64,000 bases of DNA from Bryum argenteum. Its lineage: Eukaryota; Streptophyta; Bryopsida; Bryales; Bryaceae. Below, piece by piece: positions 9,842-20,267 of this stretch (position 1 is the first letter of the stretch; each line of letters opens with the position of its first letter). The stretch is taken from the NCBI GenBank assembly GCA_037043015.1, contig CM073329.1, positions 6,712,648 through 6,776,647 on the forward strand. The letters are read 5' to 3'. The notes below the pieces were generated by a model, which was not told the DNA's origin, searched no databases, and saw only the letters and a list, made by a program, of their open reading frames with translations. The position numbers and the translations under genes are program-made.

Positions 9842-12093
9842 AGCTAGCAATTCGCGGCTCCTCTCACTCCAAATTCCACGAACAATCTGATTACACAACT
9901 GCCTGAATACAAGATTGAATCCTTGTCAATGCTGGTACTGGAATACCATCGCCAGAGAATTGGGATAAGGTTGCATCGTCGTCGTCGTTCTCGTCGTTGC
10001 ATTCTCGTTGTTCTTATACCCGGGCTGAGGTACCGGCTATTTACAGCCGAATACCCTCCTTCACGGGTATACTGGCAGTGTTCCTACTTCCTTAGTTCTC
10101 CGGTTCAGAACGAAGAGGCTGTACCAAGAGCTTTTCCTTCCGTCGAGCGCATAGAAAATAGTTGAAATTTAACTAAAATTCTCATATAACCCTTGCATGG
10201 ACTTGCTTTGTGTGACTACTTTCAAAATCTACCTTATATAATAGACTTATGTAAATTTGGAGATAGGTAACATGCCTAATATTCTCAAATATGTTATTCA
10301 AGTGACAAAGAATAATGATGATGGAGAGAAGTTGTTATAGAAAATAGTTGGTAGGTAATATCCCAAAATCAATTACATTTCCTAGATAATGTCGATTCTA
10401 GCCCTTGCTCACCATGGTAGAAAGAATGTCTATGACACACATATGAATACAAAATTTTTAAAGTTTACTATAAAGATCACTATAAAGAACTTACCATGAT
10501 TCTCCTCTTTAATTTAGGGGAAACTTTACATGCATAATCTCACTATTAGCAAAATTCTTTGGTACTTGAGGACTTCATGGCAATAGGTGACTTTGACAAA
10601 CAACGGATTAGCCGATTTTTGACTAACAACCACTGCTTCACAAGACTTTGGTACGTGAGAACTTCATGGCGATAGGTGACTTTGACAAACAACGACTTAG
10701 TAGATTTTTGACTGACAATCATTGCTTCACAGAGCTCCGGTACGCGAGGACTTTGAGGACTTCATGGCGATAGTAGACTTTGACAAACAACGGCTCATGG
10801 CCATAGGTGATTTTGACAAACAACGGCTCATGGCGATAGGTGATTTTGACAAACAACGGCTTAGCCAATTTTTGACTGACAACCATTGCTTCAGAGAGGA
10901 CTTCATGGTGATAGCCAACTTTGACGAACAACGGCTTTACGATCATTTGCCACACGTGAGACTTTTGAACAATAACAATTAGTGCCTAAGCTATAAGTTG
11001 GTTACCCACTTCTTTATGACAATAAGTAGTGATATCCACTTGAATATTATTTACCCCGTACAAAATGCATAATAAAAATTTCCTTCGACCACCTATCCCC
11101 AAAATGTCCGTAGCACAGAGATCCACGACGCCATCTATTCGTATACCCGTTACGTGCCATCACTATCAGAAGCATCGATACTCGAGATGCGCATACCCGT
11201 CGTCCCGGGTATACGGGCGTCAGCGTACCAACCTACTATCAGGAGACCTATCAGGAGACCTCTCAGAACAAGTCTTTACAGTCCGTCGACGTTTGCAGAG
11301 CTCGCTCGAGATTTGTTCGAAGGCAGCTTCAGATTGACGACGACCAGTTCCCGCAGAGCCTGATTCGTGAAGGCGATTCAATCCGAGAGATGCGTGTTGA
11401 AAAGCGACGGGTAATATGATCACGAGAAGGGGTCGATTAGGGTATGGTGCTCTCACCGAATTTTAATTTTCTGCTTTAGTCTGCTATCAATCAATTCATC
11501 TCTGTCCCTGTCGCGATGTTTAGTTTCTGAGCTGCGGAAGATCGCGCAGAGCAACTCTAAGGTACCGGCTCTATTGTGCTCTTTTGAAAGAACTGCATAT
11601 GTCCTTTTGAAATGGCGATACTCCAATCGCATTTGAGTTTCACGATCAGAGTACTGTCAAGTAGGCAGTCATTCCTGGATCCGCTCGCCTGCGGCAGTTC
11701 AAGTTCGTTTCGATGCCGTTTCTGGTAGCCGGATTGACTTTTTCTGTATCCCGTAGAGGACTTTAAGTTCGGAAGGAACTTAGGGTTTAGAAGGTGATGT
11801 TTTACTAAAAGTGAGGGTTAGGAATTGGAATCACAAATTACGAGATGAAAAGCATATGGTGTTTGGTATCATTCGATGGACGTCATTTTCAAGGCAGTTG
11901 CTTTTCATGAGAGATGCTGAGCTTGGAGTAGGTTGTCGAGGTCTTTCTATTGTCCGATTTTTATGTGATAGTGATTGTTGTTCTTCACCGTATATAGTGA
12001 TGTAGAGTTCTCTCAGTATGAATAGTATGTAGTCTTGAATCTCTAAGGGGTTAATGATGTTTGTTGCGTGTGTTTACCAGGGGATCCTCAAGT
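9842..12093. promoter_or_regulatory. Divergent intergenic region between PSRP4 and the trihelix-ULP1 gene
   Basis: This 2.25-kb stretch separates two genes transcribed away from each other, so it should hold both promoters. The plus-strand gene probably has a leader exon and a 5' UTR intron: a good acceptor, TTTACCAG, lies at 12073-12080 just before its ATG. The stretch also contains the tandem repeat array at 10565-10940 and inverted TATACCCG motifs near 10015-10075 and 11140-11216. No other gene was recognised. Confidence 0.5.
10565..10940. repeat. Two-level tandem repeat array
   Basis: Five or more copies of a unit of about 33 bp (core TAGGTGACTTTGACAAACAA), some embedded in a larger unit of about 100 bp that adds TTTTTGACTGACAACCATTG. 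Both strands stay open over part of the array (for example repeated FDKQRL..AIGD reading plus), which is a by-product of a period divisible by three. There is no evidence that it is translated. Confidence 0.85.
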
Positions 12094-15000
12094 ATGGACT
12101 CTGGGAGGACCGAAGGGGGCGTGCCACTGTCGATGATTCCGCTCCTGGAGGTGGCGCACAGGGAGGAAGAAAAGGATTCACAAAGAGGCAGTTGGATAGC
12201 GAGGCAGGAGCAGGAAGGGAAGAAGCGGAAGAGGTCGTCAAACTGGAGCGAGGCAGAAACGCTGCAACTGCTTATATTAAGAAAAGGCCAGCTTCAGAAC
12301 AAAGACGAGCGCAAGTCGTGTCCGAAAGGCTCCAGTGCGTGGGACGAGATAGCAGCACAGCTGAAGGAACATAATTTCACGGCGAGGTTGGGGAAGCATG
12401 TGGGAGAGAGGTGGGACACGCTCAGGCGAGTATATATGGACATCGAAGAGCGCTGCAAGACAACCAAGGAAACGTATACCAGCATTCTAGATGCCAACAG
12501 AGAGCTCTTCAAGTTCATTCCCACTGAGTACACGCAACGGTGGCATGAGCTCATTGCGGAGTGCAAGCCTGGGAAACGCAGGGGCAAGAAGCCCATCGAA
12601 AGTGGAAACTCCCAAAAACTTGAGCCTGCTGCTGCACCCTCTGTGACGTCTTATAGAGTCCCTACCGAAGCGGGCTCTGACGGCAATGTGAAAGAGTATG
12701 TTCCACGCGAGAGCAGTCCAGCTTCAGGGGTCGGCGTTGCCTCTGCATTTGATAGCCTTATCAGAGACTTAGAGCGTGTCATTTCCTGCCAAAAGAAGCA
12801 GGATAAGTCATGTGGGAGGAAATATGCTAGACGAGGCAGAGACTCCGACGAGAGAGCTGAACCGAATGGCGTTGAGCTCTCGGAGGATACTTGTGATGCA
12901 GTAGAGACGAACGTGGTCGCGTCCCTGCAATCTCTGCTTACAGCATTGAAGAGTACGTCCGAGTTCACAAGTTCTGGTAAGCCAGTCCCTAATCTGCTCC
13001 AAAGAACTTCACCTCTTGGAATGCTATCCTTCGACATTTGAAAGCAAAGTTCCTGATCAAAGTTGCAACACGGTGGCGTATGATGTCTGCTATCACATCA
13101 TTGAGCGTTTTTTAGGAAGGGTGCAAGTCCAACATTACTTGAGAATGTTATGTAGCCACAAAAACATGCTAACAAGTTACACCTGACATCTGTTTTTGAT
13201 CGCAGACTCTTACCTTTTAAAAATAGACAAACGTGAATGGAATCTCGTGGAGCATAATATGCGTGCATTTTCGGAGAGGCACAGGAACACTGAACAACAT
13301 AGGTACGAACGCAGGTCCTATAAAACTAGTGTATATGTCGGCTCCACGTTGAGCATCTGAATCTTCGTTGTTGTTTACATGTAGCCCACTGTTGGATTTG
13401 GGTTTCAAAAGACTCTTGAGTTCATGGTAGCTTAAGCACCATACAATTTGTGTAGTGGGAACACTATAAGACGTATGTCTTAATAGTATAAAACGTAGCT
13501 GGAAGGGTGAAGCTGGAAGGGTGAAGGAGATACTGTTGATTGAAACATTTCATTCAATATCTCCTTCTATGGTTGGGTGGCAAGTTACCTTGAACTATAT
13601 AATATAATGATATAACTATATGATATATCATTATGGTTACACAATTCCAACACCCACTACTGATTGCGATATTTCTCATGCTACAACATGTACCATCCTT
13701 TCTTATCAGGATCAACGGCACTGAAAGAGCCTTCAGCAAGATCATTTGGCCCCCTGATGATCCGGACCCCGTTACGATCACACATGACGACATAAAGACT
13801 CTTGAGCCAGGGGGGCAGTTATCCGACAACATTGTAAATTTTTATCTGAAGTGAGTTCATATTTGTGATCTGCATATAGCTTGTTCTTTCGCAATATAAA
13901 ATCAGCTGCATGTCATATGAATGCTTGTGGAATATTGCCTGCCACAGAATCTAAATCAGATTGCTTGCTGTGGAAGAGAAGAGGCACGGTGTCGTTGCTG
14001 TTCTTGGCTACTAGACATGTTAGTTCGCCTCATCTTTGTTTGTTTAGAATTGATCTTCCTCCACGTTAGGTTAATTTCGCTAACATGATTCATTGATGTT
14101 GTCACTTTGCAGATATCTTCACTGTAGTATTACACGAATTCCGGATGTACAAATTTTCAAAACATTCACAAAGAATGTGTCGGCGAACCTAAATGTAGTC
14201 AGATACGGGAGCGTTCGACACTGGGTAAAAAGCATTTTTGACAAGAGCTATGTTATAATCCCAGTTTATAAAGAGTGAGTCTCTCCTCAAACCTTTCTGC
14301 TGTAAAATATATAGACCAGCTTGCTTTTTGGAGCCTCCATCTGATCGCTCTCGGCATTTTCTTTTCAGGGAACAATGGAGTCTTGTTATCTTGTGTTTCC
14401 CTGGACGACCACTTGCAGGTCAGAAACGCTTCTGTTCTTCTTATGCTAATAGGTTTTTTTTTTTCTAAGTGAGTTTGTGTTACATTTTGAACTTTCTCAG
14501 CAAACACTGGTGGTGTGCAGGAGGGAAGACCGGTATGGTAGCACCGTGCATTTTGCACTTGAATCCATCGAGACAGAAGGCTCATCAGGATTTGGAGAGA
14601 CACATGCGATTGTAATGGCCTATTCATCACATCTCTGCTTTTTTCACATGTCATTTCACTTGTCGGCTATAACTCATGTTTTCCTGGTTGATTTATTGCA
14701 GCATACTGCACCACGAGTGGCTTTGGCATCACGAAAACCAAGTTGCTCCACCTCACATCGCGGAGATTCCATTCTACCCTGTTGCGGTGAGCAAGTTTTA
14801 CATGAAAATAATGCGAAGCCAGTTATTTGCCAATTTACAGCAAAACTTTTTAAGATGGACTAGCGTCGGCTAATTACCCCGTTTTTGGATAGGCGAAGGC
14901 TCCACAACAGGAGAATTGCGTGGATACCGGTCTGTTGATATTACAATACGCGGAACTGTTCTTGAAGAATGGACCCGAAACATTCAGCTTGGCTCAAAGT

Positions 15001-15216
15001 CAAGGCTTTCCATTTGTAAGTACTTGGTCCTCCTTGTCTTGCTCAGATTCCGTATCATGTCTTGAGGTCATTCTGCAAGTGCCGTGTTTTGCTTCGCTAA
15101 CATGAGGATGGATGTTGCAGCTCTCAGACAGGTTGGAGTCTTCCGCTGCCATGACGATGAGGACAACTATTAAAGAGGTGTTGGACATGGATGTCTTGCA
15201 ATCCAGGGGAGGCTGA
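12094..15216 (+). CDS. Trihelix/SANT-like DNA-binding domain fused to an inactive ULP1/SENP-like domain
   Basis: Nine exons: 12094-12976, 13206-13302, 13710-13850, 14113-14274, 14369-14418, 14521-14611, 14702-14786, 14893-15015, 15121-15216. All have GT-AG borders and matching phases, giving 575 aa. Residues 48-120 form a Myb/SANT-trihelix-like domain (W51, W83, W107), preceded by KKRKR. Residues about 338-545 follow the ULP1 de-SUMOylase fold: IWPPDDPDPVTITHDDI, LSDNIVNFYLKYL, KSYVIIPVY, QWSLVILCFPG, PCILHLNP, PQQENCVDTGLLILQYAE. The catalytic His, Asp and Cys of active ULP/SENP enzymes are Gln430, Asn459 and Thr515, so cleavage is not expected, although the SUMO-binding fold could persist. 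Exon A has an in-frame stop downstream (13041) if the first intron is retained. Start: first ATG after a probable 5' UTR acceptor. The product may bind DNA and SUMO (inference). Confidence 0.82.
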
Positions 15217-17309: not shown

Positions 17310-18995
17310 TTAGTAGACTTCGACGTGCCACTGCTTGTTCTTCTTCAAGGCGGAGAGCTTCTCCTCCCAGCTCTCGCCGCGGGCCTCAGCAACGCGCTTG
17401 AGCGTGTCCTGAATACCTGGCATCATTCCTCGCAGACCGCAGAAGTAGATGTGGGCGCCCTTGTCCAGCATCTCGAAGAGCTCCTCGCTATACTCCTCGA
17501 TCTTGTCCTGCACGTACATCTTGCCGCCCTTCTGGTTCGTCTGCTCACGGCTCAGGGCGACGTCGTACCTGAAATTCTCGGGGTACTGCTCCTTGAACTT
17601 GGTGAACTCGTCGTGGTAGAGGAGAGAGTCGCTGTTGGCAACTCCCAGGAATAGCCATGCCAGACCTCCGAACTTGAATGTCGGCACATCCTCCATGAAC
17701 ATCCGTCGCAGGAATCCCCTGTAGGGTGCAATTCCTGTTCCCGTCGCCACCATGATGTGAGTCGCGTTCGGGTCCTGCTCTGGCAACAACATCACCTTTC
17801 CTGACGGTCCCGTAATCTGCCAGCCAACCATTGTCCATACTCAAAACCACGACATAACTTTCCAAATATCACATCCAACAAGAAATATCTTATTTCACTT
17901 ATCAAACTACTCTTCATGAGTTGCTGGTCAACATAAAATAATGCCACATCAGAACCTGATGCTGCACGCTTTATTTTCTATCATATGCCGTAACTATCAC
18001 ACGATCATTGTGAGATCAAATGATTCGAAAGTGTAGTGCATTGTACTAAAGGACACTTTGAGATTCTGAAACGATGATGTGGATTGTAACATGACAGAGA
18101 TCCAGAGGACGTATCGCACGTCAACCTTCTCTAAAACGAAGACTCTGGAGTAATATTCATGCACTGGCATTGAAACTGGGACGAAATCTGAAGATACTGG
18201 TGTGAAGATCATGCAGATTCTCACTAGAATGAAGATCTGGAATGATCTGCGCACTCAATACACTACCATAGCACGCTTCGAACACTGAGAATTTGACTGT
18301 AGAATGACTAGATTAGATATCTGGTACAGAGGCACTGCATTCATGTACAAAAGAGTAGGTTGAAGATGGGCACTGACCTGCACTTTGTCGCCGGGTTTGC
18401 AATCGCAGAGGAAGTTGGAGCAGATACCCTTCTTAGCGGGGTCTTCGGCCTTGAGCTCGGGGTCCCAGTAGACAGCACGACGGACGCAGAGAGAAGCAGT
18501 CTTGCCATCGAATTCGTCACCATAGCGAGATGAGGCGATGGAGTACAGACGCACGGCGTGGGGCTGGCCGGGCTTCTTCGGGTTATCACCAGGGGGAATG
18601 ATACCGTAGCTCTGGCCTTCCCAGTAGGGCATGTCACCGTTGTGCTCGATGACGATATGGCACGTCTCACCAGTGGCATTCGGGCCGACGATGCGCTCCA
18701 CGGACTTCACCGTGCCGGTGAAAGGCTCCTTGTTCTTGAACAAATGCATCGGGGGATCGGCCGCGGCCTCGAGATCCGCCGACAGGGCGACCTTGCTCGC
18801 CTGCTCGGTGAGCGCCGCGATGGTAACGCGCCGCGCAACGACATTGCGAGCTCCAGTGGTGTTGCATTGGAGCGCCGGCAAGCGACGTCCCGTGAAGAAC
18901 GAAGCCTCCGAGCTCGTGGAAGCCGTCGTCGCAGCCGAAATCCCGACGTGGGCTACGCCCACATGAGCCGCGACTGAAGCTTGCAGACACGCCAT
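17310..18995 (-). CDS. FNR: Ferredoxin-NADP+ reductase, chloroplast (leaf type)
   Basis: The FAD enzyme that transfers electrons from photosystem-I-reduced ferredoxin to NADP+ at the thylakoid. Two exons, 18378-18995 and 17310-17816, are joined in phase 0 across a 561-bp intron (CAG/GTCAGT; GGCAG/ATT), giving 374 aa, the usual precursor length. Start is ATG 18995 ([10 protein letters not shown]), followed by a transit peptide of about 60 residues. The FAD-binding motif RLYSIASS and [12 protein letters not shown] are in exon 1. NADP-binding [31 protein letters not shown] and the C-terminal WHVEVY, with the aromatic residue that stacks on flavin, are in exon 2. All key motifs are intact. USE1 starts 564 bp away in the opposite direction. 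Confidence 0.97.
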
Positions 18996-19559
18996 TGCAG
19001 TCACTCACAGACGGATACGAAACGAGTAGCTCAGACTCCCACGAACCTTATGACAACAATGGCGCAATTTTGGATGAGTGGAGCAGCCCTACCCTCCCAA
19101 AGAGATTGCAGCTAATGTGTGGATATAAGCAACATTCAGCACCACTCACGCTTCCGGTGAATTCCTCCCTCCATCGCGAAGCTTTTCGTCTCTAAATCAG
19201 GCATTCCGTAGATGCGAACAAACATTCTGTTCCGCCTGTATAGATACTACCCCTCCATCTACCGTACCATAAAGCGACTCTCAGTTCGTAGCCACAAACA
19301 AAAGCACAGCAGCAATTTCGGACCCTGCAAATGTAGCCGTCCTGTAGATCTCGATACTTTACATTTTAGATAAGATGGGGCGATGAAAAAGGCAAAAGGT
19401 GAGGGCTAGAAAGTGACTTCGTAGGCAGAAAGCGCGGGCAGTAGCTCTGTTCCAAGTGTCGATGCTCGCGATTGAGGCCTCGGACACTTGTCTCTCTTCT
19501 TTTGTCATCAGTTCGATCACTCGAAGTCGCCGGCTCCGATTTGTGAGGGTTCGGGAGCG
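18996..19559. promoter_or_regulatory. Shared bidirectional promoter region (FNR/USE1)
   Basis: Only 564 bp separate the start codons of the divergent FNR and USE1 genes, so both promoters and 5' leaders lie here. No TATA box or named element was assigned with confidence. Confidence 0.6.
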
Positions 19560-20267
19560 ATGGGCGTGAGCAAGGCGGAGGTGAATTTGAAGCGTTTGCT
19601 GCGAGCGCAAGTGCACCAAACGAACGATGCAAAGCTGGTGCACTATGTCGCAACGATGCGATCGCTGTTAGCGGATCTGACGGGCGATCCACAGCATCAG
19701 GAGCTCGCGACGATTCCCGCGTCGCGGGCGCGCGAGTACGCGCATCAGATCGACGCCGTGGCGGAGCGGCTGCGCGGCCGCGGCGAGATCGCTCAAGACC
19801 CGATCGTCGAACCATCACCAAGCCCTAACCCTGATTTCCGACCCGAGGAAAAACAATACAGCACGAGTTATGTTCCGGCTCCGGCCCCGAGCATGCGCAG
19901 GCGTCCCCGAGGGGATGATGCTGCCGCGAAATCGCAGGCGCCGGTGGTGAGAGTGGACGCTTCGCTCCAATCGCTGGTGCAGCGCCATCGCCAGCTTCAA
20001 GAAGGCTTGACGGACGAGATGGTGATGTTGTCCGCGCAGCTCAAGGAGGGCAGCTTGTTGATGGACCAGGCGCTTCATGAGACGGATCGCGTGCTGGAAT
20101 CCACTGAGGATGCTGTTGAGGCTTCTCTTGCTTCCACGAACCGCGCCAATGTCCGCATGGGTTCTCTCTCCAGCCAGAGCTGGAAGACTAGCTGCTTGAC
20201 TTGGCTCATTCTCTTCGTCGTCTTCGGCATGTTCATGTTCATGGTGGTCTTGATCAGAGTCACGTAA
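19560..20267 (+). CDS. USE1: USE1-type SNARE, ER membrane
   Basis: Tail-anchored Q-SNARE of the ER that acts with Sec20 and Sec22-type SNAREs in Golgi-to-ER retrograde fusion. It is a single exon of 235 aa. The N-terminus (MGVSKAEVNLKRLLRAQ, then AKLVHYVATMRSLLADL) matches the plant USE1 signature. The SNARE-like heptad region spans about residues 140-205 (LVQRHRQLQEGLTDEMVMLS..LKEGSLLMDQALHETDRVLE), followed by the C-terminal hydrophobic anchor TWLILFVVFGMFMFMVVLIR and a two-residue tail. The start codon was chosen because homology begins exactly there; upstream in-frame codons lack an ATG before it and are in the leader. Head to head with FNR. Confidence 0.9.
   Translation: MGVSKAEVNLKRLLRAQVHQTNDAKLVHYVATMRSLLADLTGDPQHQELATIPASRAREYAHQIDAVAERLRGRGEIAQDPIVEPSPSPNPDFRPEEKQYSTSYVPAPAPSMRRRPRGDDAAAKSQAPVVRVDASLQSLVQRHRQLQEGLTDEMVMLSAQLKEGSLLMDQALHETDRVLESTEDAVEASLASTNRANVRMGSLSSQSWKTSCLTWLILFVVFGMFMFMVVLIRVT

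Follow-up and report, generated by a model that had tools for sequence, protein, structure and literature searches.

A gene that appears to join a trihelix domain to a C48 protease fold without its catalytic His and Cys was found in the 64,000-nucleotide window of the Bryum argenteum genome analysed here (C9:6712648-6776647; "the window" denotes this whole stretch). The gene lies on the plus strand at 12094-15216 and has nine exons, with 1728 nt encoding 575 residues and zero internal stops. Judged from its sequence, a trihelix DNA-binding domain combined with a ULP2-like C48 fold lacking His and Cys may make a non-cleaving docking protein, a tentative reading that we place a little below an even chance. 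In such a protein the trihelix part would provide placement on DNA, and the dead C48 fold would bind a ubiquitin-like protein (SUMO being the first candidate), a former substrate or a partner without cutting it. The protein may in this way hold or shield marked chromatin proteins.

Two domains and the altered catalytic site

The gene model was built by hand from GT-AG sites. Both domains lie in one frame, and each scored above its Pfam curated cut-off. The N-terminal domain matched Myb_DNA-bind_4 (residues 49-126, E 8.4e-10) and also Myb_DNA-bind_5 (E 4.1e-5); it had been overlooked in an earlier note on this DNA, which described a ULP1 fold only. The marks of a trihelix protein, a three-helix Myb/SANT-like domain and conserved Trp, were both found, and Trp51, Trp83 and Trp107 are invariant in four Myb-like domains of the same genome. 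Structure prediction covered the single-exon trihelix part and yielded helices, with a mean predicted local distance difference test (pLDDT) score of 69. Arabidopsis GT-1 was the best PDB sequence match of this part (E 0.035), and GT-1 structure 2jmw was the nearest PDB fold in Foldseek (prob 0.98, but E 0.48). The predicted model gives modest structural backing to the trihelix assignment.

The C-terminal domain matched Peptidase_C48 (PF02902; residues 363-536, E 3.9e-9, 37.1 bits against a cut-off of 20.7), which places it within the C48 fold. Among PDB sequences SENP7 was its best match (E 2.9e-16), followed by SENP2 and SENP1, so the C48 part leans to the ULP2 side, and the earlier label "ULP1" should be replaced by ULP2-like. 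The His-Asp-Cys triad of an active enzyme was not found, the three positions being occupied by Gln430, Asn459 and Thr515. Two other residues expected of an active enzyme are present, the Gln of PQQ six residues before the Cys (Gln509, at what we take to be the oxyanion position) and the Trp after the His (Trp431), as is the Asp514-x-Gly516 frame. The retained oxyanion Gln had been described correctly, and the claim that all three catalytic residues are replaced holds in part. The changes of His, the general base, to Gln and of Cys, the nucleophile, to Thr are clear losses, and no fewer than two base substitutions separate the latter pair (TGC to ACC), but Asn also stands at the Asp position in copies that keep His and Cys. 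It was observed in the Harbinger-borne repeat C2:24952k and in four copies that ride on pogo elements and retain HW and DCG, and likewise in C1:20720k, whose gene model is less sure. Asn459 alone therefore says little.

Across six His- and Cys-bearing copies from the same genome, 28 columns are invariant, and 23 of them are kept in the window domain. These copies were picked for His, Cys and similarity, the columns had to be filled in at least five, and pogo, OTS-like and ULP1-like rows were excluded. The five changed columns are I369V, H430Q, V506A, C515T and, within a loop that aligns poorly, F395N. By hand arithmetic, five random changes among 28 columns would hit both catalytic ones in 2600 of 98280 cases, or about 0.026.

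Exon 1 (12094-12976) encodes residues 1-294 plus the first base of codon 295, covering the trihelix / Myb-SANT-like domain (49-126) and a linker. It is joined to the C48 part by exon 2 (13206-13302, 97 nt), which has GT-AG borders and an open frame and is the least certain exon. The C48 domain starts in exon 3 (13710-13850; IIWPPDDPDPV..LSDNIVNFYLK), where Gln363 occupies the tunnel-roof position, and continues through exon 4 (14113-14274; ..VRHWVKSIFDKSYVIIPVYK). Exon 5 (14369-14418; EEQWSLVILCFPG) carries Gln430 (codon 14373-14375) at the catalytic His position. Exon 6 (14521-14611; PCILHLNPS), with a phase-1 acceptor, carries Asn459 (codon 14562-14564) at the Asp position. After exon 7 (14702-14786; ILHHEWLWHHENQ..FYPVA), also within the C48 domain, exon 8 (14893-15015; PQQENCVDTGLLILQYAE) contains the kept Gln509, Cys512 (14917) and Thr515 (codon 14926-14928) at the catalytic Cys position. 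Exon 9 (15121-15216) encodes the C-terminal tail and ends in the stop codon TGA. The span 14369..15015 given in the earlier note is exactly exons 5-8 of this rebuilt model, and its residue numbers are exact (Gln430 at 14373, Asn459 at 14562, Cys512 at 14917 and Thr515 at 14926).

The genome searched comprised 258.8 Mb in 25 contigs and gave at least 23 matches in the C48 search and at least 49 with the window protein. The C48 domains of other copies were rebuilt with a purpose-written spliced aligner, and ten were compared for introns; the names SPF-like, OTS-like and ULP1-like are our own working labels, set without Arabidopsis sequence. The five introns inside the window C48 domain, of phases 2,2,1,2,0, recur at the same residue and phase in five of the ten copies, namely the SPF-like C7:2722k, C10:3084k and C7:2755k, C3:2623k and the Harbinger-borne C2:24952k, all with His and Cys. 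The copy C5:17460k has two of the five introns and two pogo-borne copies have three (in one of them the last intron is displaced by a few residues), while two OTS-like copies share two and three in addition to others of their own. The shared introns indicate that exons 3-8 represent an ancient set of ULP2-type exons rather than a reading accident. Base composition by codon position (GC1/2/3 of 0.54/0.35/0.48, introns 0.39) is of a coding kind and resembles that of the three SPF-like copies. The highest identity, 73/186 residues, was to the copy at C7:2722k, and a close paralog of the window protein was not found among the matches listed.

Possible docking protein, separate genes or pseudogene

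Pseudoproteases are known in several families. Plant SPF-type/ULP2 proteases and SENP6/7 resemble the window protein in the C48 fold and the PQQ..DxG motif, SENP7 being its best PDB match and the SPF-like copies of this genome sharing its introns. The window protein differs from them in its changes of His to Gln and Cys to Thr and in the C-terminal position of its C48 domain, behind a trihelix domain. All Arabidopsis ULPs retain His-Asp-Cys according to the available part of PMC6117582. Trihelix (GT) factors such as GT-1 share with the window protein the Myb_DNA-bind_4 match and the conserved Trp at 51, 83 and 107, and are nearest to it in the PDB; in the accessible text of one family paper (PMC4195496), however, C48 is not mentioned and "protease" and "ulp" occur 0 times. 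Partial sources on iRhoms describe a protease fold retained as a binding or regulatory part, although that fold is unrelated and iRhoms are membrane proteins. In open-licence PMC papers, neither a trihelix-C48 fusion nor a plant C48 pseudoprotease was among the matches listed.

Engineered yeast Ulp1 C580S (UTAG) traps SUMO, with a Kd for SUMO1 of about 12.8 nM (PMC5774762, available excerpt), which indicates that a Ulp without catalysis is able to act as a strong reader. UTAG is a dead Ulp fold, as is the window domain, which is proposed here to bind without cutting. As far as that excerpt goes, UTAG is altered at the Cys only, whereas the window protein differs at the positions of Ulp1 W448, S513, H514, D531 and C580. 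Because the natural protein differs at more positions, other partners are possible, and the domain may bind what was once its substrate, a different ubiquitin-like protein or SUMO itself on a surface remote from the tail. The protein might be a natural DNA-tethered reader of SUMO or a ubiquitin-like protein, in which a ULP2-type fold takes the place of a SUMO-interacting motif (SIM) and enables a trihelix factor to hold or protect SUMO-marked chromatin proteins, but we consider this rather improbable. If true, it would illustrate the conversion of a deconjugating enzyme into a chromatin-bound reader, and a SUMO reader of this kind would match in nature what Ulp1 C580S does as an engineered trap.

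Several results weigh against a docking protein. Gln363 (GGQLSD) aligns with the Trp of HWLND in SENP2, which is presumably equivalent to Ulp1 W448, and Glu429 directly precedes the lost His. In the accessible part of PMC9603560, W448, S513 and W515 line the Ulp1 tunnel. The aromatic roof of an Ulp1-like SUMO-tail tunnel is replaced here by Gln363, a position at which five of the six compared copies carry Phe or Tyr and the sixth carries Leu. With Gln363 and Glu429 at tunnel positions, Ulp1-like binding of the SUMO tail may be lost. The cleft is thus altered beyond the triad, which fits lost catalysis and argues against a simple Ulp1-like gripping of the SUMO tail. On the same side stand the codon score of exon 2, which is within chance (54% of the null scores, from random open windows, are as high), and the first AG after the pyrimidine-rich stretch of intron 5, at 14500, which looks stronger than the one used and with exon 5 kept leads to a stop at residue 458. 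Furthermore, at 2.2 changes per column the branch of the C48 part is very long, and the 17-row tree does not place this part; the synonymous distance was not estimable against six of seven copies and was 3.1, hence saturated, against the seventh.

Since the coding signal of exon 2 does not exceed chance, the apparent fusion could consist of two neighbouring genes on the same strand, a trihelix gene ending at 13041 and a dead C48 gene with its own exon upstream of 13710. Without splicing of intron 1, the frame of exon 1 indeed stays open as far as a stop at 13041. The codon score is a weak test, several C48 exons being low as well. The gap between the two genes would be only about 670 bases, and the joined model is in frame throughout. 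In the copy at C7:2722k an AG before the C48 start agrees in offset and phase with the exon-3 acceptor of the window gene, suggesting that the window C48 part has a preceding exon as its kin do, but the exon border of that copy is unproven and C10:3084k has an open frame at this place instead. We infer that the trihelix and C48 halves form one protein and regard separate genes as fairly unlikely.

It was found that two AGs precede exon 6. The upstream one follows a pyrimidine-rich stretch and gives a start at 14501, 20 nt before 14521; the resulting 5' extension (14501-14520, plus strand) produces a stop with exon 5 and an in-frame KHWWCAG without it. The used acceptor has its nearest upstream AG 20 nt away in intron 5 and 14 nt away in intron 8; in the other six of the eight introns this spacing is at least 29 nt, or there is no AG within 45 nt. 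Skipping of exon 5 together with use of the 14501 acceptor would give an in-frame form of 565 residues that contains ..VYKDKHWWCAGGKTG.., the stretch concerned reading VYKDKHWWCAGGKTGMVAPCILHLN. This form regains HW, loses the SLVILCFPG strand and retains Asn and Thr. Alternative exons that could restore HW, D and DCG were examined, and no form was found to regain His, Asp and Cys. A tblastn search of the window with 16 other C48 domains of the genome gave no match of E<0.05 clear of the C48 exons of this gene, but the matches of pogo copies continued past the 5' border of exon 6 and covered LSKHWWCAGG in intron 5, which the upstream AG explains. The phase-1 intron common to five other copies favours 14521, and this second acceptor is presumably the one used. 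The statement that nine exons run without a stop is therefore right for the 575-residue frame, which is open, and depends on the second of the two AG acceptors.

Neutral decay was simulated from a gene with His and Cys, with 4000 runs at each of nine divergences. Without frameshifts, the simulated gene was open and splice-intact in 37% of the runs at 0.01 substitutions/site, in 4% at 0.03 and in 0.8% at 0.05, and the fractions were lower still when a frameshift rate was assumed. Loss of both His and Cys from a gene that stayed intact was obtained in 1/4000 runs at 0.03 and in zero runs at the other eight divergences. This rarity suggests that the residues were probably lost while the frame was still guarded. 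A recently dead pseudogene, one that lost catalysis by accident and is already defective or becoming so, perhaps through mis-splicing before exon 6, would explain the long C48 branch, the weak codon scores of the C48 exons and the better-placed AG at 14500 with its stop, and decayed C48 copies with stops do occur elsewhere in the genome. Nevertheless, the intact state is rare in the simulation even without frameshifts, Thr is at least two base changes away from Cys, and no intact close copy was among the matches listed, so that we judge a pseudogene doubtful. The view of the earlier note that a retained pseudo-protease fits better than a decaying gene is supported by the shared introns, the 23/28 columns, the simulation and the lack of a close paralog among those matches. 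The gene is presumably expressed and under selection.

Kinship and origin of the C48 part

The C48 tree contained 17 rows, the window and 16 of 19 rebuilt domains. C9:10060k, a near copy of C2:24952k, and the degenerate C1:35292k and C8:13292k were excluded. Copies that were matched and lie outside the tree include C11:5557k, C3:3720k, C10:3117k, C4:11072k and the Harbinger-like copies on C3 and C4. By path, the nearest rows to the window domain are SPF-like. The grouping of the window with other rows was examined by approximately unbiased (AU) tests, which gave p values of 0.134 with the pogo copies, 0.156 with C7:2722k, 0.189 with C3:2623k, 0.334 with the OTS-like rows and 0.37 with the ULP1-like row; with the Harbinger copy p was 0.031, and with the Harbinger and pogo copies together 0.113. 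For membership of a ULP2/SPF-like subgroup, 5/5 introns are shared and the nearest rows agree, but the AU tests do not decide. In a tree of eight rows, the window Myb-like domain clusters with trihelix-like genes of the host and is separated from two Harbinger-linked Myb proteins (support 91/92); its own branch is long (3.0). From these sequences, a host trihelix gene may have been joined to a host ULP2-type exon set, and a mobile-element route would also be possible.

C48 domains ride on pogo-like and PIF/Harbinger-like elements in this genome, and the C48 part, or both parts, could stem from a transposon that was domesticated. Shared with pogo copies are the WPxDxPxPV start and the Asn, which suggest a pogo-like origin of the C48 part, an idea weakened by the missing introns (two tested pogo copies have 3/5) and not settled by the tree (p 0.134). 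The Harbinger copy has all five introns, Asn, a DDE_Tnp_4 gene and, by eye, a Myb-like frame on the opposite strand. A Harbinger-like origin was set aside, as the grouping of the window with this copy alone was rejected and only that with the pogo copies added was not. The placement of the Myb-like domain with host genes and the SPF-like nearest C48 rows also speak against mobile elements, and we hold such an origin to be quite unlikely. Kaonashi ULP-like (KIU) and other transposon-borne C48 domains likewise lie outside ordinary ULP genes, but KIU is potentially catalytic and part of transposons (PMC6117582, available part), whereas the window gene has no close copies among the matches listed.

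Enzyme activity might persist if Cys512 or Thr515 served as the nucleophile and a different base were used, such as the His of the KHWW form without exon 5. The kept Gln509, Trp431 and Asp514-x-Gly516 frame and the HW of that form fit this reading, but it is highly improbable: His is missing from the base position of the main model, the form without exon 5 lacks the strand that follows HW and still has Asn and Thr, Cys512 lies three residues off, and we know of no precedent.

Other C48 copies and neighbouring genes

Pogo-like C48 repeats were observed at C10:230k, C7:17724k, C8:8357k, C6:14732k, C2:25595k and C8:13292k, and most of them have Asn in place of the Asp. Since frames adjoining the C10:230k copy match HTH_Tnp_Tc5 and DDE_1, the carrier of this SUMO-protease-like domain seems to be a pogo-like transposon; a stop occurs in the C10 and C6 copies at least. 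The elements at C2:24948001-24958000 and C9:10056001-10066000 are 97.8-99.4% alike and contain a C48 domain and a DDE_Tnp_4 transposase (E 1.4e-28, C9 copy). By sequence they appear to be a Harbinger-like transposon with a C48 domain, and a Myb/SANT-like frame was seen by eye on the opposite strand of the C2 element. The loci C3:13759526 and C4:21950088 have the same C48 search score and are perhaps further Harbinger-like copies. Two other copies look degenerate, C5:19841k with a stop in the aligned stretch and no clear HW, and C1:35292k with the DCG motif altered to NDCKFG. Two C48 pairs, C7:2722k/2755k and C10:3084k/3117k, each about 33 kb apart on two chromosomes, perhaps reflect an old duplicated region.

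A tandem array of at least eight trihelix-like frames was found at C3:2508882-2620881. In the two array members that were read, an LRR-like frame follows the trihelix frame, an unusual pairing (the one tested matched LRR_4 and LRR_RPS2). An intact-triad C48 gene stands just beyond the last member. The array was considered as a sister fusion, but the C48 gene at C3:2623k lies ∼0.5 kb past the LRR frame and the two were treated as separate genes; with the window C48 part, tblastn gave no match of E<1 in the ∼5 kb downstream of each of the seven other array members.

Among the open frames at 9-20 kb of the window, inspected by eye only, no transposase was noticed. Upstream of the gene, tandem repeats of 89 and 33 bases occur at 10557-10861. 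Downstream, a ferredoxin-NADP reductase gene lies on the minus strand at 17310-19004, the C-terminal exon of which has a chloroplast enzyme as its best PDB match (E 2.9e-97), which marks the DNA as part of a plant nuclear genome, and a Use1-like gene lies on the plus strand at 19476-20267 (Pfam Use1, E 1.7e-38).

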